Shown in pieces: positions 1,605 to 61,339 of a stretch of DNA of 64,000 nt. Within the stretch, counting starts at the first letter, position 1; each line of letters starts with the position of its first letter. The position numbers and the translations under genes were made by a program. A model generated the notes under the pieces. It saw only the letters and a list, made by a program, of their open reading frames with translations. It ran no database searches and was not told where the DNA came from. The stretch comes from Oscillospiraceae bacterium (GTDB lineage: Bacteria; Bacillota; Clostridia; Oscillospirales; Oscillospiraceae), in the NCBI GenBank assembly GCA_015067585.1, contig SVMC01000007.1, forward strand, positions 1 through 64,000, in the 5' to 3' direction.

Positions 1605-4600
1605 TCAGAAGAAGCTCACCTGACTGGTCTCCGGCATGGAACCAAAGGCACCGGCCGCCTTGAGGTTCTCAATATGAGTCTGGGATACCTTGGGACAGGC
1701 GGCAGAGAATTCCTCAATGGAGATAAACTGCTTTCCTTTTCTTCCCTCCACAATATCCTCGGCCGCGGTTTCACCAAGACCGGACACCGCGAAAAATGGC
1801 GGCAGCAGCTTTCCATCCTCAATCACAAACTTCTTTGCCTCAGACTTATAAAGGTCGATGGGAGCGAACTCAAAACCGCGAAGATAGAATTCATAGCAGA
1901 CCTCAAGGGTGGTCAGGAGGTCTTCATCCTTGGCGGTGGCATCAGGGTTATGCTTAATGGCCTGAATGCTGGAAAGAACCATGTCCTTGCCTTGCGTCAT
2001 CAAGGCTGCGTCAAAGCCGCCCTTCTGACTTCTGCGGTAGAAATACGCCGCATAGAAGGCCAACGGCTCATGCACTTTAAACCACGCAATGCGGAAGGCC
2101 ATCATAACATAGGCAACGGCGTGGGCCTTGGGGAACAGATACTTGATCTTCTTGCAGGAGCCGATGTACCAATCCGGCACACCTGCCGCCACCATTTCCT
2201 CCTCCGCACCTTCGGGCAGTCCCCTGCCCTTTCGTACCGCCTCCATGATCTTGAAGGATCGTTTTTCCGGCATGCCGCAGGAAATCAGATAGTTCATAAT
2301 ATCGTCACGGCAGCCGATGGCCTGACCGACGGTGGCAGTCTTGGACAGGATCAGATCTCTGGCATTGCCAAGCCACACGTCCGTACCATGGGAGAAGCCG
2401 GACAAGCGGATCAGAGTATCAAACTCTGTGGGTTGGGTTTCTTCCAGCATGCCGCGGGTAAAGCTGGTGCCGAATTCCGGAATGGCCACAGAACCAACCG
2501 GCCCTAAAATCGGATCATTTTCATAGCCAAGCACCTTGGAAGAGGTGAAAATGGCCATGGTATCCTTATCATCCAGCGGGATCTCGCGGGCATTCACCCC
2601 GGTCATATCCTCCAGCATACGGATCATGGTGGGATCATCATGCCCCAGCATATCCAGCTTCAGGAGGTTTTCCTCCATGCAGTGATATTCAAAATGGGTG
2701 GTGATCCATTCCGAATCCGGTGCGTCCGCCGGGTGCTGCACGGGGCAGAAATCATAGATCTCATTTTCCTGCGGAATGACCACCAGACCGCCGGGATGCT
2801 GGCCCGTGGTGCGCTTGACACCCACGCAGCCAAGGGCAAGGCGCTGCTCTTCCGCGCGGTTGACAACCTTATCCCTTTCGCCGAGGTACTTTTTAACATA
2901 GCCGAAGGCGGTCTTCTCCGCTACGGTGCCGATGGTACCGGCACGGAACACATGATCCGCTCCAAACATATTCACGCAGTAGGCATGGGCCTCCGCCTGA
3001 TACTCGCCGGAGAAATTCAGGTCAATGTCCGGTACCTTGTCACCGCCGAAGCCGAGGAAGGTCTCAAAGGGAATGCCGAATCCCTCTTTTGCCAAGGGAG
3101 TGCCGCATTTGGGGCAATGGGCATCCGGAAGGTCCGCACCGCAGGCGGCATTATTCTTCGCCCAGATGGCTCTTTCCACCTTTTTGGCATCACCGGAGTC
3201 CTCGTCCATGGCATGGATATCCGCCGTATCAAATGTGGTGAACTTACACTCTCGATTCGGGCAGCGGTAATGGGGCGGATAGGAATTGACCTCCGTGATC
3301 CCGGAAAAATAAGCAACGATAGACGATCCAACGGAACCACGGGAACCGACCAGGTAGCCGTTCTCCAACGAGTTCTGCACCAGCTTCTGGGCAGACATAT
3401 AGATCACATCATAATGGCAGGAAATGATGTCGCCAAGCTCCGTCTCCACACGGTCGCGGATCAGCTTCGGCGGGTTTTCGCCATAAAGCTCATGCATCTT
3501 TCCGTAAACCAGCCGCTTCAGATCTGCCTCAGAATTCTCAATGGAGGGGGCAAACAGGTTATGGGGTACCGGGCGGATGGTTTCGCACATATCCGCAATC
3601 AGGTTGGTATTCTTTACAACCACTTCGTATGCCTTCTCTTCTCCAAGGTAGGAGAATTCCTCCAGCATTTCATCGGTGGTCTTAAAATAAATCGGCAGAT
3701 CCTTGTCCGCATCCTCAAAGCCCTTGGTGGCAAGAAGGATATGGCGGAAGATCTCGTCCTCAGGATTGAGGAAGTGTACATCGCCGGTGGCACACACGGG
3801 GATACCCAGCTCCTCGCCCAATTCTACGATGGTGCGGTTAAAGCTCCGCAGCTCCTCCTCGTCCTCCGCAAGGCCCTTTGCCAGCATGAAGCGGTTGTTG
3901 CAAATGGGTTGGATCTCCAAGAAATCATAGAAGCTTGCAATGCGCTTGAGTTCTGCATGACTCTTATGGGCCAGAACCGCCTGAAACAGTTCGCCCGCCT
4001 CGCAGGCAGAGCCGATGATCAGGCCCTCCCGCCAACGGATCAGCTCAGATTTCGGGATGTGGGGCACGCGCTTATAATACTGCAGATTGCCAAGAGAGAT
4101 CAGGCGGTAGAGATTGCGAAGGCCGGTCTGGTTTTTAGCAAAGAGAAGAATATGCCGCGCATGGCGCCCATCCAGACGGCCACCGCTGCGAATCTGCGCC
4201 ATAGCGGGATTGATGGCTTCAAGATCGTGAATATCCCGTTCTTCCAACATCTTAATAAAGCGCATCAGCAGATAGCCGCAGGTCAGAGCATCGTCAGAAG
4301 CTCTGTGGTGCTGGAATTCCGGCAGGCTCAAAGCATCCGCTACAATATTCAGCTTATATTTGCCCAGCTTGGGAAGCAGGTTCTGGGCAAGGATCAGAGT
4401 ATCTACATAGGTGGGTGCAAAGGGAATTTTCAGCTTTTCGCAAGCCGCTGTCAGGAAACCCACATCGAAGTCTGCATTATGGGCACAAAGGGGACGATCG
4501 CCGCAGAATGCAAGAAATTCCGGCAGCACCTCGTGGATCTTGGGTGCGCCACGCAGCATCTCATCGGTAATGCCGGTGAGTTCAATGATCTTTTTCGCTA

Positions 4601-6016: not shown

Positions 6017-7063
6017 TCACATCATATCAACATATTCCAGTAATCTGGGAAGCAGCTCATCATAGGGCATCTTTTCCTTGAGTTCCCCCTTGACAAACAG
6101 CACGCCGCAGCCATCGCCGCCTGCGATGCCCAGATCTGCCTGCCGAGCCTCACCGGGGCCATTGACCACGCAGCCCATAACCGCAACGGTCAGATTCTTT
6201 TTGCAGCCCTTCAGCGCATCCTCGACCCTCCGGGCAAGACCGATCAGATCGATCTGCGTCCGTCCGCAGGTGGGGCAGGCAACGATATTGATACCCTCTT
6301 TGCGAAGACCGGCGGCACGAAGGATGGCCTTAGCCGCCTCGATCTCGTGCAGCGGGTCTGCGGTCAGGGATACACGGATCGTGTCACCGATGCCCATACA
6401 AAGAAGACCGCCGATGCCAACGGCAGATTTGATGGTACCCATGTACTCCGTACCGGTTTCTGTCACGCCTACATGAAGGGGATAGCTCGACCGCTCAGAA
6501 AACAGGCGGTAAGCCTCCATCATCACCGGTACATCAGAGGATTTCATGGAAACGCAGATATCAAAGAAGCCGCAATTCTCCAAAAGGGCAATGTGAGAGA
6601 ACGCGCTGTCCACCAGTGCCTGTGCCGTGGGGCTGCCATAGCGCTCCAAGAGTTTCTTTTCCAGGCTGCCGCCATTGACACCAATGCGAATGGGGATCTT
6701 ATGGGCGCGGCAGCAATCCACCACCGCTTTTACCCGCTCTTCCCCGCCAATATTGCCGGGATTGATGCGGATCTTGGCTGCGCCCGCCTCAGCAGCGGCA
6801 ATGGCAAGGCGATAATCAAAATGGATGTCCGCCACCAAAGGCAGCGGGGATCTGTCTACGATGCTGCCAAAGGCTTTTGCCGCTTCCATATCCGGAATAG
6901 CCAGCCGTGCAATCTGGCAGCCGGCATCGGAAAGGGCATTGATCTGGGCAAGGCAGCCTTCCACATCCGTTGTTTTTATATTCAGCATGGACTGGATGGA
7001 CACCGGCGCATTGCCGCCGATGAGCACATCCCCCACACGGATCTGTCGTGTAATATTTCTCAT
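6017..7063 (-). CDS. ispG: 4-hydroxy-3-methylbut-2-enyl diphosphate synthase, flavodoxin type
   Basis: IspG makes HMBPP from MEcPP in the penultimate step of the MEP isoprenoid pathway, using a [4Fe-4S] cluster. The 348 residues hold the TIM-barrel part (ADIHFDYRLAIAAAEAGAAKIRINPGN-type region near 80-110) and the cluster-binding C-terminal part with CPTCGRTQ near 262 and GCVVNGPGEA near 297. The length fits the short bacterial form. It follows rseP by 4 bp and precedes polC closely, in one run of co-directional genes with dxr, so two MEP enzymes are encoded together. Confidence 0.97.
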   Translation of the reverse strand: MRNITRQIRVGDVLIGGNAPVSIQSMLNIKTTDVEGCLAQINALSDAGCQIARLAIPDMEAAKAFGSIVDRSPLPLVADIHFDYRLAIAAAEAGAAKIRINPGNIGGEERVKAVVDCCRAHKIPIRIGVNGGSLEKKLLERYGSPTAQALVDSAFSHIALLENCGFFDICVSMKSSDVPVMMEAYRLFSERSSYPLHVGVTETGTEYMGTIKSAVGIGGLLCMGIGDTIRVSLTADPLHEIEAAKAILRAAGLRKEGINIVACPTCGRTQIDLIGLARRVEDALKGCKKNLTVAVMGCVVNGPGEARQADLGIAGGDGCGVLFVKGELKEKMPYDELLPRLLEYVDMM

Positions 7064-7067
7064 AATC

Positions 7068-8123
7068 TCACCTGAAAATCAGTTTCCACACATCGTGGAA
7101 AGTAATAAACGCCATAAACAAAAGCAGCAGAACCATGCCGGCGCCGTGGATATAGCCCTCATACTTGGGATCGATCTTTTTTCGGAAGATCCCTTCAATG
7201 GCCGCCGTCACCAATAGGAAGAAAATGCGTCCGCCGTCCAGTGCCGGGATGGGCAGCATATTCATCACCGCCAGATTGACAGCAATGAAAGCAGTGAGGT
7301 AAAGCACATCCCGAATGCCCTCAGCCGTGGTTTTTGCGGCCTTGCCGGTCTCGGACATAGTGTTCACAATAGCAACGGGGCCACCCACTTCATTCAGGCC
7401 CGCTCTGCCGGTGATCAGATCCTCAAGACCCATCCACACCATGCGGCAAAAATCCATACAGGCATACCAGCTGTTCCGCAGAACCGAAGAAGCCGTGGCT
7501 TCCTCATAGCCGACGGTAAAGCCGTAAAGAAGCTCTTTGCCTTTCTCTGTTTCATATTCCTTCTTTTCCAGTGTAAAATCCGGCATTTCCACCTTTTCGC
7601 CGTCTCGCAGCACCACAAGGTCGCACTTCCCCGTGGCATTACGGCTCAGGTATAGCTGGATATCCGTCAAGGTATAGACCCTGCTTCCGTCGATGGAATA
7701 GAAGTAGTCCCCTTCCTGCATCCCGTGGACTTCCATGGGACTATCGGGCAAAAACTTCGAAACCTGTGTCGTGCTGAAACCATCTGCTGTACTGAACAGC
7801 AGCAAAACGATCAAAAAACCAATGACGAAATTCATAAACGCACCAGCAGCTAAAATGATCAGCCGCTTCCACCATTTGGCACTGGTGAAGGCCCGGGGGC
7901 TGTCACTGGCCTCATCCTCCCCCTCCATGGCGCAGTAGCCGCCAATGGGGATAGAACGCAGGGAATAGGTGGTCTCCCCTACCGTTTTTTGAAAAATAGC
8001 AGGCCCCATGCAAATGGCAAACTCATTGACCTTCACGCCCAGGGACTTTGCCGCAATAAAATGTCCCAGCTCATGCACAAAGATCAGAATGCCGAAGGCA
8101 AGAATCGCAAAAAGGATATACAT
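7068..8123 (-). CDS. rseP: RIP metalloprotease (site-2 protease family)
   Basis: A 351-residue intramembrane zinc protease. The first membrane helix contains HELGHFIAAK (zinc-binding HExxH, near residue 18), a PDZ domain follows (GMQEGDYFYSIDGSRV), and the C-terminal membrane part carries NMLPIPALDGGR, the third zinc-ligand motif. The family cleaves anti-sigma factors and remnant signal peptides in the membrane. The place between dxr and ispG is the common Firmicutes arrangement. Substrates cannot be read from the sequence. Confidence 0.95.
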   Translation of the reverse strand: MYILFAILAFGILIFVHELGHFIAAKSLGVKVNEFAICMGPAIFQKTVGETTYSLRSIPIGGYCAMEGEDEASDSPRAFTSAKWWKRLIILAAGAFMNFVIGFLIVLLLFSTADGFSTTQVSKFLPDSPMEVHGMQEGDYFYSIDGSRVYTLTDIQLYLSRNATGKCDLVVLRDGEKVEMPDFTLEKKEYETEKGKELLYGFTVGYEEATASSVLRNSWYACMDFCRMVWMGLEDLITGRAGLNEVGGPVAIVNTMSETGKAAKTTAEGIRDVLYLTAFIAVNLAVMNMLPIPALDGGRIFFLLVTAAIEGIFRKKIDPKYEGYIHGAGMVLLLLFMAFITFHDVWKLIFR

Positions 8124-56047: not shown

Positions 56048-57250
56048 TTATTCAGAGGCTTTGAAGTTGTAGAGAGGTCGGATTTGCTCTAAAATGTCAA
56101 CCGTAGGCCCGATCTGAGCGATGATCTCGTCGATGCCCTTATAGGCCATGGGGGACTCATCCAAGGTGTCAAAATTGACGCAGGTGCTGTAGATCCCGGA
56201 CATTTCTTCCTCATATTCCTGTAAAGACAGGTTCTCAAAGGCCGCTTTGCGGCTCATGAGGCGGCCCGCACCATGGGGTGCGGAGTAATTCCACTCGGGA
56301 TTCCCCTTCCCCACGCAGATCAGGCTGCCGTCACGCATATTGATGGGGATCAGGAGCTTTTCCCCCTTTCGGGCAGAAACCGCACCCTTGCGAAGGATAA
56401 ACTGCTCCGTATCGATGTAGTTGTGGATGGTGGTAAACTGCTCCACAGGGGTCAGACCCATTCCCTTTACGATCACATCCACCATGGCCTTGCGGTTCAA
56501 TGCCGCAAAGTGCTGGGTGATGGCCATATCGTGGAGATAATCATCAAACAGCTTCCCTTCTACCCACGCAAGATCTCTGGGCACACGGGTGGGGCGCTCG
56601 CGTTTCAGCGCTTTGATGGTAGCCTCGATCTCCTGAAAACGGCCCTGTGCCTTGAGTTCGGCAACAGCGGCTTGAATCTGGTGGTTCGCACCGCCCCAGA
56701 GGGCTTTGCGGCCTTCTTCCTGATAGAACTTTGCCACCTGTGTACCCAGATGACGGCTGCCGGAGTGGATCACGAGAAATATGTCTCCTTCCTCTCCCCT
56801 GTCCACCTCAATGAAATGGTTGCCGCTTCCAAGGGTACCGATGCTGCAGCGTGCCCGTTCCAGATTCACATACTTTGCACAGCGCAGTGCGTTCAGGTCG
56901 ATCTCATGATTCAGTTCATGGGGTTCTGTGCGGATCTCACGGCCACAGGGAATCTGGGTGCGGATGATCTCATCCAGTTTCTCATAATCCAGTTCCTTTT
57001 CCGCAATGCGAAGGGTCTCCATGCCGCAGCCGATGTCCACCCCCACCATACCGGGCACGATCTTGTCCGTAATGGTCATGGTGGTACCAATGGTGCAGCC
57101 GATCCCCGCATGGACATCTGGCATAATGCGAATCTTGCTGTCGGAGAACTCCTTCTGATCACAAACCGCCCGGATCTGATCCTCTGCCGCCTTTTCCAGT
57201 GCCGGGGTATAGCAGATGGCAGTGTTATATTGTCCTTTGATCTCAATCAT
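56048..57250 (-). CDS. rtcB: RtcB-family RNA ligase
   Basis: RtcB joins RNA 2',3'-cyclic phosphate or 3'-phosphate ends to 5'-OH ends with GTP and Mn. The 400 residues hold the family motifs: MPDVHAGIGCTIGTTM (43-58), MVGVDIGCGME with the metal-binding Cys, IGTLGSGNHFIEVD near 137-150, VIHSGSRHLG near 160, and YSAPHGAGRLMSR near 336 with the His that is guanylylated. It follows the Ro-like DUF2828 gene by 46 bp on the same strand with AAGGAG before the ATG. The nearby tRNA-like RNA modules suggest a role in RNA repair. Confidence 0.96.
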   Translation of the reverse strand: MIEIKGQYNTAICYTPALEKAAEDQIRAVCDQKEFSDSKIRIMPDVHAGIGCTIGTTMTITDKIVPGMVGVDIGCGMETLRIAEKELDYEKLDEIIRTQIPCGREIRTEPHELNHEIDLNALRCAKYVNLERARCSIGTLGSGNHFIEVDRGEEGDIFLVIHSGSRHLGTQVAKFYQEEGRKALWGGANHQIQAAVAELKAQGRFQEIEATIKALKRERPTRVPRDLAWVEGKLFDDYLHDMAITQHFAALNRKAMVDVIVKGMGLTPVEQFTTIHNYIDTEQFILRKGAVSARKGEKLLIPINMRDGSLICVGKGNPEWNYSAPHGAGRLMSRKAAFENLSLQEYEEEMSGIYSTCVNFDTLDESPMAYKGIDEIIAQIGPTVDILEQIRPLYNFKASE

Positions 57251-57296: not shown

Positions 57297-58754
57297 TCAT
57301 GCCGCAATCGGAGCATATCGCGAGCTGCCAAGAATATCCAGCATATAGCCCATGGGAGACAGATTTCCGGAGGCCAGCATCCCAAAAATTCTGGGGTTGC
57401 AGCCGCTGACCAGAGCCACACCCTGCTCGTTCATTGTAACAGGCTGCTGCTCTCTGCGGCTTGCCACATTCCAGAAGACCAGACGGGGAAGCTGATAGCC
57501 ATGCTTGGCAAAGATTTCCTTTGCGTAGTCAAAATTCGTCATATCCGCGCCTTTGGTGCAATAATCAAACTCCATATCAGAGATGATATACACGGTGGAA
57601 GGCAGTTCACTCTGGGGAACCTTGTGCTTCACTGCCGCGTTCAGGATCAGCTCAAATACCTTCTGGATGTTGGTATTGGCCACCTCGTTGAAATCATGGC
57701 AGTAACGCACCTTCTCAAGAATATCCTTTCCCTTGATCTTCACCAGTTGGGGATTTTCAGAAAAGGTAATAAAGTGATCCCGGAAGGCTCCGGTGTTTCG
57801 CTCGGCAAAATAGATGCCCAGAGAAAGGGCCACAGCAGCGGGACGGGGTTCCATCGCCATATACATAGAGCCGGAGCCATCGATGACCACCAGTGCGTTC
57901 TCACCGTCCGTGAAATCCTCCTGTGCCTTCCATGTGGCATCGATGGCGTCGCGCTCTGCTTTGCTCACATTGGAAGAAAAGAAGGGAGCGATGATATCAT
58001 AAGGCGTCAGAGTGGCGGTGTGCAGTACGGCTTCTCCCATGGTAACCTTGTTCATAAATTCGCTGTAACGCTCGCCATCGTTTCGAATAAACGCCTTACG
58101 GTATTTGTACATGGCCTTGGAGGGCTGCTTCTCATAGTCGAAGGTGTAGTCCTTTTCCCGAAGGTTATTCTCGATGATTCGGATGCGGGCGCGAAGCTGC
58201 ACCAACAGCTTGCGATAGCTTGCGTCATTCATGCCAAGGGCCTTGGCAATGCGCTTGGCCGTATGTACGGTTTCGCTGTTAGAGGCATTGACGGAGGGGA
58301 GCCACTTGGCAAGCAGGCTCACATCATCGCCCATATCCATTGCCATCTGATCCTTCTCAAGCTGCTTGCGGATCAGAGCGATGGCATCCATCTCGCAAGG
58401 AGTATCCATCAGGGTCAGAACATCATCCCAGCGGCCAAATTCTGCAACATAGGGAAGGTTCTTCTTCACGGATTCCGGCGCATAGGCGGCAAGCCAGCGA
58501 AGAACGGTACGAAAAACCTTTCTCTCGCCGAGACCACCTCTGACATCTCTGCCAAAGAACAGGATCTTCATGGCAAGATCGGGATCTTCCGCGTAAGCTC
58601 TGCGAAAGCGGCGGATCACCGCATCCTCGTCCGCACTTCTCAGTGCGCCAATGGTGGCAAAGAGATCGAGGCAGTCAGAGAGGGTGGTAGCATTGGAAAG
58701 CGCACCGTTTTCGGTATAGGCCCGATTGGCCTCCATTTGGATATAATTCAGCAT
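57297..58754 (-). CDS. DUF2828 protein, Ro/TROVE-like with vWA domain
   Basis: A 485-residue protein. The N-terminal helical part (about 1-260) has LAMKILFFGRDVRGGLGERKVFR (in pieces), LPYVAEFGRWDDVLTL, LLAKWLPSVNASNSET and QPSKAMYKYRKAF, which I recall as the DUF2828 pattern. The C-terminal part is a von Willebrand A domain with the MIDAS-type VVIDGSGSMYMAM near 277-290. HEAT-like helices plus vWA is also the plan of Ro60/Rsr, which bind Y RNAs. DUF2828 being a Ro equivalent is inference. The neighbours (RtcB and tRNA-like RNA modules) support it. GAGGAGGG lies six bases before the ATG, 35 bases after the last RNA module. Confidence 0.85.
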   Translation of the reverse strand: MLNYIQMEANRAYTENGALSNATTLSDCLDLFATIGALRSADEDAVIRRFRRAYAEDPDLAMKILFFGRDVRGGLGERKVFRTVLRWLAAYAPESVKKNLPYVAEFGRWDDVLTLMDTPCEMDAIALIRKQLEKDQMAMDMGDDVSLLAKWLPSVNASNSETVHTAKRIAKALGMNDASYRKLLVQLRARIRIIENNLREKDYTFDYEKQPSKAMYKYRKAFIRNDGERYSEFMNKVTMGEAVLHTATLTPYDIIAPFFSSNVSKAERDAIDATWKAQEDFTDGENALVVIDGSGSMYMAMEPRPAAVALSLGIYFAERNTGAFRDHFITFSENPQLVKIKGKDILEKVRYCHDFNEVANTNIQKVFELILNAAVKHKVPQSELPSTVYIISDMEFDYCTKGADMTNFDYAKEIFAKHGYQLPRLVFWNVASRREQQPVTMNEQGVALVSGCNPRIFGMLASGNLSPMGYMLDILGSSRYAPIAA

Positions 58755-58788: not shown

Positions 58789-58877
58789 AAGGCACATCCC
58801 TATTATGGGTGCAAATTTCAGTTTTTAGGCTGGGTCAGAACTTACCTGACGAAGTGCATGATTGCTGTATGTGCCTT
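58789..58877 (-). ncRNA. Structured RNA module 4 of the tRNA-like array
   Basis: On the minus strand the ends AAGGCACAT (58877-58869) and ATGTGCCTT (58797-58789) pair perfectly. ACAGCA follows the 5' strand. Inside is a five-base-pair stem with a seven-base loop, GTCAG-GTAAGTT-CTGAC, the size of a T or anticodon arm but without a T-loop sequence, and a weak CCC-ATAATA-GGG hairpin before the 3' strand. It is the last module before the DUF2828 gene and so also part of its leader if co-transcribed. Confidence 0.65.
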
Positions 58878-58881
58878 TTCC

Positions 58882-58944
58882 AAGATGCCTTTCTGCGATG
58901 GCTCCCAAAGGTGCCGTCGGACGGCGGCTTGCTGTTGGCATCTT
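58882..58944 (-). ncRNA. Structured RNA module 3 of the tRNA-like array
   Basis: On the minus strand AAGATGCC (58944-58937) pairs with GGCATCTT (58889-58882). Both arms carry compensating changes against the AAGGCACC/GGTGCCTT helix of modules 1 and 2, which supports the helix as real. AACAGCA follows the 5' strand. The inside holds GCCGT-CCG-ACGGC and no T arm, so this 63-base unit is a reduced form. Confidence 0.65.
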
Positions 58945-58953
58945 TCAAATAAC

Positions 58954-59047
58954 AAGGCACCATAGGAAGCGGGACTCGAACCCGCGTAACCGGAATTGCT
59001 TCCGGTGCTTTCACCACTTAGCTATTCAGTGTTGCTGTCGGTGCCTT
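58954..59047 (-). ncRNA. Y-RNA-like tRNA mimic, module 2 of the array
   Basis: A 94-base unit on the minus strand. Closing helix AAGGCACC (59047-59040) with GGTGCCTT (58961-58954). Then GACAGCA; a D-arm-like AGCTAAGTGGTGAAAGC (59023-59007); ACCGGAA-GCAA-TTCCGGT, a seven-bp hairpin with a GNRA tetraloop where the anticodon arm would be (59006-58989); and a T arm GCGGG-TTCGAGT-CCCGC (58985-58969). There is no anticodon, no proper acceptor stem and no CCA, so it is not a tRNA. A protein-binding stem joined to a tRNA-like module is the plan of bacterial Y RNAs such as YrlA. Confidence 0.8.
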
Positions 59048-59058
59048 TATGAACTTCC

Positions 59059-59128
59059 AAGGCACCATTTCCTCAAAGGTGGGATTTGAACCCACAAGTA
59101 CCATTTCCTTGGCTGCTGTTGGTGCCTT
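59059..59128 (-). ncRNA. Structured RNA module 1 of the tRNA-like array, with T arm
   Basis: A 70-base unit on the minus strand. AAGGCACC (59128-59121) pairs with GGTGCCTT (59066-59059), the same helix as module 2. AACAGCA follows, then a canonical T arm GTGGG-TTCAAAT-CCCAC (59095-59079). D and anticodon arms are absent. AGGAAATGGT occurs twice, on both sides of the T arm. The first base lies about 40 bases after the terminator of the WYL gene; the sequence between has ATAAGATATG but no clear -35 box. Confidence 0.75.
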
Positions 59129-59167
59129 TGTGGCCATATCTTATCATCCGCTTTCCGGAAAATCGTG

Positions 59168-59210
59168 GAAAAAAAGTTGCGAACTCAGTTTTTTACTTCT
59201 GAGTTCGCAA
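59168..59210 (-). terminator. Terminator at the end of the WYL operon
   Basis: On the minus strand TTGCGAACTCAG pairs with CTGAGTTCGCAA, followed by CTTTTTTT. The stop codon of the WYL gene (59193) is in the loop, so the 5' arm is made of its last codons. It separates the regulators from the RNA array. Confidence 0.93.
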
Positions 59211-60107
59211 ATCCATTTGTTTTTCGATTCTTCTGCGCAGCTTTTTCTTAAAATGCATGGGAGAAATCACCTTTATCGTTGGTCCAAAGGAGAGAACGCG
59301 GATCAAAAGCTCCGTTTCGTCATCCCTTTCATACTGCAGGGTCAGCAGATACCGCTTTTCATCGATGCGCTGTGTGGTCTTCTCCAGATGGGAAAAGTGC
59401 AGCATACAGCGCTCCAGTGTATTTCTCTCGTCTGTGACCTCCAGCACAAGGGTATCCTTCCGCAAAGTCTTAGGGCGGTATTCCTCATCCGTGCAGAGCT
59501 CCAATAGGGCGCAATCCGTGATCCGGGCCATATTGATGGTGAGAACGCTTCTGCTGTTGCCGGTGATCAGGCGAAATTTATCGTCTTTTTGGGAGTATTC
59601 CAGCTTATAGGGTACGCAGTTCCAGCAGTGCGGGATTCCATCCCGACCGCTAAAGTGGATTCTGAGCCAGCGGCGTTCCCGCAAAGCCTGCAAAACTGTC
59701 TGAAAATGGGCAATGTAGCACCCATCCTCATAGGGATCACCGTCACCGTAGCGATCATAATACACGATCGCATCCTGCGGATAAAGAGGCTCCACATCCT
59801 CAAGTCCGTCCATCGAAGGCGCAAACAATCGAATTCTCGGATCGGAAAGCAGGGTCTTCAGCCAGCGCTTCTGCAGTGTGGTGAGGGGCATGGTGGGTGG
59901 ATGCTTCAAGGGTGTTGTAAAATTCTTTTTCAGCAGAGGCCAGCTTTCGTCATTAAGGTGCTGCGGGATGGTCAGTATACTCTCCTGAAAGCCTTTTTCC
60001 CGGATGATGGTATACATAGCTTCCTTTGTCAGTTCGCCCCGCACTGCCCGCTCCAAAAGCTCAGAAAGCACATGATAGTAGCTTCCGTACACTTCACTGA
60101 ACAGCAT
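59193..60107 (-). CDS. WYL-domain regulator, second of two
   Basis: The product of 304 residues has the WYL layout: an N-terminal helical part, then a central beta domain with LRERRWLRIHFSGRDG, CVPYKLEYSQKDDKFRLITG (the position of the WYL core, here YKLEYSQKDDKFRL), and a C-terminal WCX-like extension (LVLEVTDERNTLERCMLHFS, LRIDE-like end). No clear HTH is seen at the N-terminus. WYL domains sense nucleic acids or nucleotides and control many RNA/DNA-repair and defence genes. The ATG overlaps the stop of the first WYL gene by one base (TAATG). Confidence 0.83.
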   Translation of the reverse strand: MLFSEVYGSYYHVLSELLERAVRGELTKEAMYTIIREKGFQESILTIPQHLNDESWPLLKKNFTTPLKHPPTMPLTTLQKRWLKTLLSDPRIRLFAPSMDGLEDVEPLYPQDAIVYYDRYGDGDPYEDGCYIAHFQTVLQALRERRWLRIHFSGRDGIPHCWNCVPYKLEYSQKDDKFRLITGNSRSVLTINMARITDCALLELCTDEEYRPKTLRKDTLVLEVTDERNTLERCMLHFSHLEKTTQRIDEKRYLLTLQYERDDETELLIRVLSFGPTIKVISPMHFKKKLRRRIEKQMDLRTQK

Positions 60108-61339
60108 TACCCTTCACCTCCATACATGGCGGCCATTTTCTCCAAATCCCCATAAAATCGATCCACCACCGCCTGATCGGAGCATTTCAGCTCCACGATC
60201 CTTCCGATGAAGGTGCGAAGCCACGGGATTAGCTCCGACGCATCATAAACATCCACACTGTAGCGGCAGGTATGCTCGTCTATGATCTCCACGGTGCCGT
60301 TTCGCTTTTCCCTCTCCAGCCGCTTTGGAATGTGCCCCTCGCTTGCGCCATAGCGCACCGTCATCTCCAGATGATCCACCTGAAATCCCTGCCCGCCGGA
60401 GGTGCCCCAGAGATGAGGCTGGAACTTCTCCCAGATCTCAGAAAACCGCTCAGGTTCTGCTTCCATTTCCTTCGGTTCCACAGTCAATATGTAATCCAGA
60501 CGGAAAAAGATCATTTTCCGGAAGGCATAATGATGGCACAGCAGATACTGCCGCCCGGTCTGGGTGCTGATGAAGATCTTCACAGGGTAGACCAGATGCT
60601 TTGTGCTTTGATCCTTCCGCACGCTGGCATTGGTCAGCATAACACGGCGATTCTCTCCAATCGCGCTAAGAAGCTGCAGAAGGATCTCGCTGTCCAGCGC
60701 ATGGAGCATATAATGGTGCTTGAACTGGAAATGATCCGGGATCTCCCCAAGCTGATCCAGCAAAAAGGAACCGATCACACCAAGAGGATCGACTTCGGAA
60801 AAGAAGGATATGGCTTGTTCCCATCCGTGCAGAGAAACCCCGCTGTCATTTCGGGAAAACACCACTTCCCTGCCCCGCTTTTCGCTTTTAAGCAAACCAA
60901 GGGCAACATATTCCTTCAGCTTCTTGCGGACGGTGGAAAGATCCGGCTGCCAATCCGTTTCAAAATGACATAGATAGCAATCAAGAAAGCAATCGAGAAT
61001 TTCCTGGGCGGTATGGCCTTCCCCATCCTGCAAAAGATCCAGAATATAGAAATGGAAGGTCACATCCCCATCGGTAAAGCTTTTGGCCTTAAATGCCTGA
61101 TAGAGAGGATTATGGGAGATACTCCGGCTGTCCACGGACAAAAACACATTCTTCCCCTCTGTGGTCTGGCGGAAGCGCATATACTCTCCCAGCCAGCTTT
61201 CGATGCGGCGGCGCTCATTGTCATAGCTGCGGGCGCTCTTTTTGTCATACTCCGTCCGACTCTTAAAGCCGTAGACATAGAACTGCCGCATATAATCCCG
61301 CACCTTGTCGATGCTCTTAATTAGTTCGCTATAGGCCAT
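60107..61339 (-). CDS. WYL-domain regulator, first of two
   Basis: The product of 410 residues starts MAYSELIKSIDKVRDYMRQFYVYGFKSRTEYDKKSARSYDNERRRIESWL (in pieces). A winged-helix part follows (HFYILDLLQDGEGHTAQEILDCFLD; STVRKKLKEYVALGLLKSEKRGREVVF, in pieces), then the WYL domain (NRRVMLTNASVRKDQSTKHLVYPVKIFISTQTGRQYLLCHH, in pieces) and a C-terminal WCX part. I start at 61339 because AAAGGAGG lies just upstream; the 90-residue extension in the open frame overlaps the xdh gene. It would regulate the RNA-array/DUF2828/rtcB genes, by inference. Confidence 0.87.
   Translation of the reverse strand: MAYSELIKSIDKVRDYMRQFYVYGFKSRTEYDKKSARSYDNERRRIESWLGEYMRFRQTTEGKNVFLSVDSRSISHNPLYQAFKAKSFTDGDVTFHFYILDLLQDGEGHTAQEILDCFLDCYLCHFETDWQPDLSTVRKKLKEYVALGLLKSEKRGREVVFSRNDSGVSLHGWEQAISFFSEVDPLGVIGSFLLDQLGEIPDHFQFKHHYMLHALDSEILLQLLSAIGENRRVMLTNASVRKDQSTKHLVYPVKIFISTQTGRQYLLCHHYAFRKMIFFRLDYILTVEPKEMEAEPERFSEIWEKFQPHLWGTSGGQGFQVDHLEMTVRYGASEGHIPKRLEREKRNGTVEIIDEHTCRYSVDVYDASELIPWLRTFIGRIVELKCSDQAVVDRFYGDLEKMAAMYGGEG

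Follow-up and report, generated by a model that had tools for sequence, protein, structure and literature searches.

Four short RNA modules of a common build stand in tandem between a pair of WYL-type regulator genes and the genes for a Ro-like protein and an RtcB RNA ligase in an Oscillospiraceae bacterium, and the question that the locus raises is what such an array carries and what it is for. The window, which is the whole stretch of 64,000 nucleotides analysed here (contig SVMC01000007.1, positions 1 to 64,000), holds the following genes and modules:

56048..57250, minus strand: RtcB RNA ligase.
57297..58754, minus strand: Ro-like protein with DUF2828 and DUF7788; vWA domain with the MIDAS motif DGSGS, and a predicted full Ro60 fold.
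58789..58877, minus strand: module 4 (M128); arms AAGGCACAT/ATGTGCCTT; 23S rRNA hairpin, then GAAATT.
58832..58854, minus strand: 23S rRNA mimic CTTCGTCAGGTAAGTTCTGACCC in module 4.
58882..58944, minus strand: module 3; arms AAGATGCC/GGCATCTT; GC-rich hairpin interior.
58954..59047, minus strand: module 2; arms AAGGCACC/GGTGCCTT, as in module 1; cloverleaf in tRNA order with no acceptor stem.
59059..59128, minus strand: module 1; arms AAGGCACC(A)/(T)GGTGCCTT, ACAGCA and a tRNA T arm inside.
59079..59095, minus strand: T-arm mimic GTGGGTTCAAATCCCAC in module 1.
59193..60107, minus strand: WYL2, a WYL/WCX-domain regulator (PADLOC WYL model, E 3e-11; Pfam WCX below its cut-off).
60107..61339, minus strand: WYL1, a WYL-domain regulator, its start set at 61339 since most relatives align from residue 81-91 of the longer open reading frame.

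On inspection of the sequence, the four modules occupy 340 nt of the minus strand with spacers of 11, 9 and 4 bases, and each is closed by a helix of 8-9 bp with ACAGCA directly after the 5′ arm; the array folds more stably than 100 of 100 dinucleotide shuffles (z −3.2). A preliminary description had given the arms, spacers and ACAGCA in just this way, had placed the array between the WYL regulators and the Ro-like and RtcB genes, and had proposed different payloads on one frame, all of which holds; it overlooked the tRNA and 23S rRNA matches in three of the four interiors, and many payloads, taken over all loci, are mimics of these kinds.

Rfam contains Y RNA families. When the window's array was compared with Rfam, only tRNA rose above the gathering score and no Y RNA family appeared even at E up to 10, at which six weak extras were returned (plastid UTR families, sR48, STnc420 and tmRNA). 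The payload of module 1 scores 33 against tRNA-Leu (shuffle maximum 29), and the sub-threshold tmRNA match (model 347-363, E 0.017) falls on its T-arm mimic. Module 2 matches the Rfam tRNA model at 41.8 bits (58966-59027; model positions 5-66 of 71), carries a GCAA-capped stem in place of the anticodon loop, and aligns with 14 similar modules. For the interior of module 3, no relative was recognised among the tRNA and rRNA comparisons. In module 4, CTTCGTCAGGTAAGTTCTGACCC is identical to 23S 1879-1900 of CCNA10 in 22 of 23 alignment columns (score 39; maximum 28 in 1200 shuffles).

The protein encoded beside the array is predicted to have the full Ro60 fold, with a HEAT-type ring and a vWA domain as in Ro60/TROVE proteins. 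The predicted fold covers 388-420 residues of Ro60, and the MIDAS (DxSxS) residues D292, S294 and S296 are invariant in 28 sequences; the likeness to Ro60/Rsr, including phage Ro60 (PDB 9L5Y), lies in the predicted fold and the vWA/MIDAS C-terminal half, and the difference in an identity of 10-16%. Unlike Rsr, the protein matches DUF2828 and DUF7788 in Pfam and not TROVE (PF05731), and NCBIfam holds no family for it or for the WYL proteins. A PDB search with the 28-sequence profile returned no match, so the link to Ro60 rests on the predicted fold; a TROVE search of the window's genome found nothing. The locus offers a lead to the function of DUF2828/DUF7788 proteins.

Conservation of the frame was followed in relatives. 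A protein-based scan of genome contigs gave 23 named loci, and 50 oriented loci, the window included, were compared (modules are identical within the pairs L003/L029, L004/L031 and L013/L036). Because the interiors differ, a covariance model was replaced by a pattern and a pairing count; sites were chosen by the 5′ arm pattern and ACAGCA only, with pairing not required. In 416 kb, this yielded 139 sense sites vs. 5 antisense, and for 133 of the 139 the Ro-like gene follows within 3.2 kb. An exact 7-bp complement follows within the next 150 nt at 128 of these 133 sites, which bear 19 different 7-nt arms, whereas 1000 swaps of arms between modules left 4.3 paired on average and never more than 11. 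The catalogue of 129 modules found anywhere in the loci did require pairing, the evidence for which is the swap test; apart from one nested unit it holds 16 distinct arm pairs, in which two Watson-Crick types are seen at each of pairs 2-7 (at pair 6, AU in 64 modules and GC in 64). With a relaxed motif (NCAGCA and ACAGCG accepted), 155 of 164 sites are paired, in 44 of 50 loci with 1 to 8 per locus, vs. 0 of 24 antisense sites; six of the 50 loci have no module even by this motif. The preliminary description had read the arm changes that keep pairing as a sign of selection on the helix, and had named the conservation and covariation of helix and ACAGCA in related genomes as the test of its idea; the swap comparison supports the first, and the second came out strongly in its favour. 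In L022, module M065 seems to enclose module M066.

The frame also travels with the protein. Across the host's order, the Ro-like protein is present in 24 of 394 genomes and the exact 15-letter frame AAGGCACCNACAGCAA in 8, of which 7 are among those 24 and carry the frame within about 1.7 kb of the Ro-like gene (Fisher p 1e-8; 1.4e-7 without the window's genome). G042 has the exact frame with neither a Ro-like gene nor a pairing arm, and a looser frame pattern is unspecific genome-wide. Outside the host's order, modules were found in five of seven further genomes with a DUF7788 match (three of one genus) and in none of nine TROVE-type loci, whose flanks are short. Judged by genome comparison, the frame, its covariation and its co-occurrence with the Ro-like gene are established.

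The neighbouring genes are more variable. The fetched flanks of the 49 other loci contain RtcB in 24 cases and WYL genes in 23; among the 15 loci with full 5-kb flanks, RtcB is present in 10 and absent from 5, and WYL genes are present in 11 and absent from 4. No RtcB lies within 5 kb in L007, in which the Ro-like gene is directly followed by RlaP, of the RNA repair pathway polymerase-beta family (6531-7295, plus strand). PADLOC, run on six neighbour proteins, returned WYL models and a weak Cas3c match.

What do the modules carry? For the comparison with tRNA, 120 distinct payloads were taken over all loci, excluding the nested unit and payloads containing N, and set against 102 tRNAs from three genomes, with 240 shuffles as the null. 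In the sense orientation, 48 of 120 payloads exceed the 99% point of the shuffles and 30 exceed the shuffle maximum, vs. 3 and 0 in antisense. In 20 of the 120 there is a hairpin of 5 bp and 7 nt whose loop reproduces a real anticodon loop letter for letter (200 shuffles: mean 0.17, maximum 2); the loops are those of Phe GAA in 6, Met CAU in 4, Lys UUU in 4 and Ser UGA in 2, and the single Cys, Tyr, Asp and Leu loops may be accidental. Weaker anticodon arms resemble Asn GUU (M005 and M085, whose score of 29 only reaches the shuffle maximum) and Arg UCU (score 26 in M075). The bare hairpin shape is not strand-specific, being present in 47 of 120 payloads in sense but in 20 in antisense (shuffle mean 1.7), nor is the largest class of a coarse classifier, "anticodon arm only" (37 sense, 38 antisense, 8.4 in shuffles); the classifier leaves 51 of the 120 unrecognised, vs. 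77 in antisense and 105 in shuffles. The mimicry, as far as it can be read from sequence, rests on letters, T and D arms and loop identity, not on hairpins alone.

Two layouts recur among the tRNA-like payloads. An acceptor-less cloverleaf is common to 15 modules (13 by the classifier, M052 and M107 by eye), in which TGG of the D loop and the greater part of the T loop are constant and the anticodon loop varies, being that of Met, Phe or others, or a tri- or tetraloop (window module 2, M040 and M079). Variable anticodon loops would also be expected from a set of different tRNAs, and with tri- or tetraloops in several of them not all of these modules can be substrates of anticodon nucleases. 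In L023 and L016, the T arm, an acceptor stem with a capping loop and the D arm follow one another in permuted order, and in the L023 module the halves correspond to tRNA positions 47-67 (first) and 2-28 (second); the layout in L021 is weaker, being assigned by the classifier only, and M048 of L016 is doubtful (second half score 14). The modules of the window show cloverleaf order, a T arm only or 23S rRNA, and none is a permuted tRNA. Ordinary tRNA genes were considered and rejected, as ARAGORN calls none in the window's array and there is no acceptor stem; antisense guides to tRNA were likewise rejected, on the 3 of 120 antisense matches above the shuffle 99% point. An extra tRNA-like RNA that lacks ACAGCA and has a long acceptor-type helix (about 11 bp or more) lies between modules in L030 (3508-3582, minus strand), L003 (4374-4449, plus strand) and L019 (4582-4653, plus strand).

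Other payloads copy rRNA. The hairpin of 23S 1879-1911 (CCNA10) recurs in M018, M025 and M128 with scores of 51, 40 and 39, above the maximum of 28 reached in 1200 shuffles, and in M011 with a score of 20, which is inside the shuffle range. All four have GAAAT in the 3′ half, vs. 2 of 116 other payloads; in 23S rRNA itself GAAATT precedes the hairpin and in the modules it comes after, which gives them the look of permuted copies. In L033, the same hairpin stands in native order in a module with GCAGCA, matching in 28 of 31 letters with a score of 47 (vs. 16 in antisense and 0 of 1000 shuffles reaching 47). The stretch 938-980 of 23S rRNA is matched by M114 (score 30) and M098 (28), the latter, like M015 (27), not above the shuffle maximum of 28; M099 scores 26 against 23S 927-944, inside the shuffle range, and a lone 16S match was found in M013 (30; shuffle maximum 27). 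The helix names H70/H71 are those that we take to apply to the 23S matches. Antisense guides to rRNA were rejected, since 1 of 120 antisense payloads exceeds the 99.5% point for 23S (M120; 30).

These copies are, to our mind with a chance just short of even, decoys for RNA-cutting enzymes, their tRNA- and 23S-like interiors being held by the Ro-like protein. The closing helix and ACAGCA would form the handle bound by that protein; each payload would show one face of a target (the anticodon arm on the acceptor-less cloverleaf, the acceptor-T-D body on the permuted one, or an rRNA hairpin) and occupy nucleases specific for tRNA or rRNA; RtcB would reseal those RNAs that are still cut; and an array whose handle is fixed and whose payloads are exchanged could keep pace with changing nucleases, such as those of toxins, rivals or phage-host conflict. 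Decoy action would explain why recognised payloads are sense copies with one exposed target face each, and why they differ between species on a constant handle with RtcB often adjoining. The RNA-repair setting, comprising RtcB, RlaP in L007 and the RNA ligase and kinase-like protein of a prophage region (see below), speaks for it. Against it weigh the unrecognised payloads, module 3 of the window among them, the tri- and tetraloops of several cloverleaf modules, and the full-flank loci that lack RtcB or WYL genes. That bacteria and a prophage encode in this way a library of pseudo-substrates, with exchangeable payloads copying the attacked sites of tRNA and rRNA and coupled to repair by RtcB, is a proposal that we hold tentatively and rate as rather less than evenly probable. 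On the decoy reading, the payloads would name candidate targets, namely the Lys, Phe, Met, Ser and Asn anticodon arms, T and D arms and a 23S hairpin.

Much of this build is familiar from bacterial Y RNAs. Like YrlA/YrlB and the D. radiodurans Y RNA with Rsr, each module would, as an RNA, be closed by pairing of its 5′ and 3′ ends; as in the rsr-yrlBA-rtcBA operon of Salmonella, the modules lie beside genes for a Ro-fold protein and RtcB; and they share with bacterial Y RNAs the mimicry of tRNA, in a few modules of relatives apparently as a permuted tRNA body. They differ from bacterial Y RNAs in forming arrays of up to 8 tandem units on an ACAGCA frame, in the variety of their payloads, which extend to anticodon arms and 23S rRNA hairpins, and in that modules over the Rfam gathering score match tRNA only; unlike in the Salmonella operon, WYL genes stand in place of RtcR. 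To our knowledge, the known bacterial cases have one or two Y RNAs each, and no description of such arrays was found in the open-licence literature searched. The idea of a Y-RNA-like array of many units, put forward in the preliminary description, gains support from the conserved and covarying helix, the predicted Ro60 fold and the permuted tRNA layout in a few modules of relatives. Up to eight payloads on one handle bear on the purpose of bacterial Y RNAs beside RNA-repair enzymes, which becomes directly testable by asking which nuclease each payload blocks and whether the Ro-like protein holds the common helix.

YrlA has been described as forming "circularly permuted superpositions with various tRNAs" (PMC11472068), and its basal stem is reported to tether Rsr and its tRNA-like part to bind PNPase (PMC8394870). 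Both favour the explanation that the modules are adaptor RNAs of the YrlA kind, in which the frame binds the Ro-like protein and the payload recruits an enzyme that binds tRNA or rRNA (PNPase, or one that processes or modifies tRNA or rRNA), the particle feeding damaged RNAs to degradation or repair; the permuted tRNA bodies of L016 and L023 (in L021 by classifier only) have the published YrlA layout. For PNPase a single adaptor would be enough, whereas as many as 8 modules occur in one array and their interiors are mostly unlike one another, with anticodon arms of several kinds as well as 23S hairpins, and we consider adaptors unlikely, if a serious candidate. In favour of decoys, a competitive nuclease-inhibitor role has already been proposed for YrlA (PMC7790460); against them, fragments of the tRNA-like YrlA were reportedly not detected in Salmonella.

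Decoys have a parallel in phage tRNA genes, which have been proposed to evade anticodon nucleases (PMC10264068). As in those genes, anticodon loops are altered and some modules lie in a prophage-like tRNA cluster; unlike phage tRNA genes, the cloverleaf modules have no acceptor stem and share one frame. Lacking an acceptor stem, such modules should not replace a tRNA. The cluster is in CCNA10, where modules accompany a second Ro-like gene, 42% identical and assigned to PHROG 850 ("RNA-binding protein"):

L228 13954-15504, minus strand: second Ro-like gene of CCNA10.
L224 9326, 11903 and 12936, plus strand: three CCNA10 modules between tRNA genes.

Near this gene lie genes for an RNA ligase (by PHROG) and a kinase-like protein of the AAA type, and about 40 kb from it the 22 tRNA genes, with genes for a terminase and a portal protein; both parts probably belong to one prophage, and the region also has an ARAGORN tmRNA call. 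The idea that the frame is widespread in viral contigs was rejected: among 113 viral stretches that match the bare frame AAGGCACCNACAGCAA, 6 of 217 sites pair, these come from three sequences of which up to two look coding, and the loci have no Ro-like, RtcB or WYL gene. L168 and L198, both viral contigs, have an identical module-like frame with a pairing arm, and no Ro-like, RtcB or WYL gene in the available viral DNA.

Upstream of the array, comparison of loci brought out a conserved promoter element and its surroundings:

59138..59143, minus strand: −10-like hexamer TAAGAT, 39 nt after TCGCA, as in relatives.
59167..59184, minus strand: conserved promoter element GTTCGCAACTTTTTTTCC.
59177..59210, minus strand: palindrome TTGCGAACTCAG-N10-CTGAGTTCGCAA, then a T run.

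The element GTTCGCARCTTTTTTTCC lies upstream, in a looser form, in 23 of 50 loci, with 0 antisense, and in its exact form occurs in 22 of 325 genomes, one copy each (12 of 18 sampled genomes with a Ro-like gene vs. 10 of 307 without). WYL genes adjoin it in 18 of 20 fetched loci, and it marks WYL-linked operons, several of which have RtcB. The best −10-like hexamer is at +39 in 14 of 21 distinct rows (for the window the script picked GATGAT at +34; counted by eye, it and TAAGAT both have 4 of 6), and the first module starts 50-60 nt downstream of the element in 15 of the 21, a longer gap in L260 and L277 being filled by a module of variant motif. A sigma-70 scan found no promoter before the array; transcription is predicted to start at the first module. 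A hairpin and T run precede the first module in 12 of 43 loci, mostly formed with the element; the palindrome of the window may be a terminator of the WYL genes, an operator or both, and we infer that the WYL pair controls the operon, with GTTCGCARCTTTTTTTCCGTGA as a candidate DNA site.

This conserved element, immediately upstream of the first module, would suit an array that acts as the 5′ leader of the ro-rtcB mRNA, a sensor or autoregulator in which the operon would be expressed according to whether nucleases or free Ro-like protein have cut or occupied the modules. It would likewise fit that in 27 of 43 loci 15-54 nt separate the last module from the start codon of the Ro-like gene, and that in loci with RtcB as the first gene the array precedes RtcB. 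Against a leader weigh the wide variation between loci in how many modules there are and in what order, and the position of the three CCNA10 modules between tRNA genes, some 40 kb from the second Ro-like gene; we judge it improbable. Chance hairpins, or functionless debris of tRNA genes or mobile DNA, could account for the tRNA-like letters and for loci in tRNA clusters or beside ROOL RNA, but are scarcely credible given the covariation measured against swap, antisense and viral-contig controls, the constancy of ACAGCA, and the presence of a Ro-like gene in 7 of the 8 genomes with the exact 15-letter frame.

In L017, a ROOL RNA (3794-4388, plus strand) lies shortly upstream of tRNA-like modules and the Ro-like gene. 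A sister operon was found in genomes without a Ro-like gene (L262-L265, L273-L275 and L279; extended L280, L282 and L283), in which WYL genes and the same promoter element are followed by a conserved stretch of about 300 nt, which contains a T-arm-like hairpin and matches no Rfam family at gathering score, and then by a Band_7 (slipin-like) gene, confirmed by Pfam in 3 of 3 tested; RtcB comes next in 3 of 5 extended loci. At the edge of the window itself, a Gut-1 RNA and a tmRNA adjoin on the minus strand (2-77 and 120-468).
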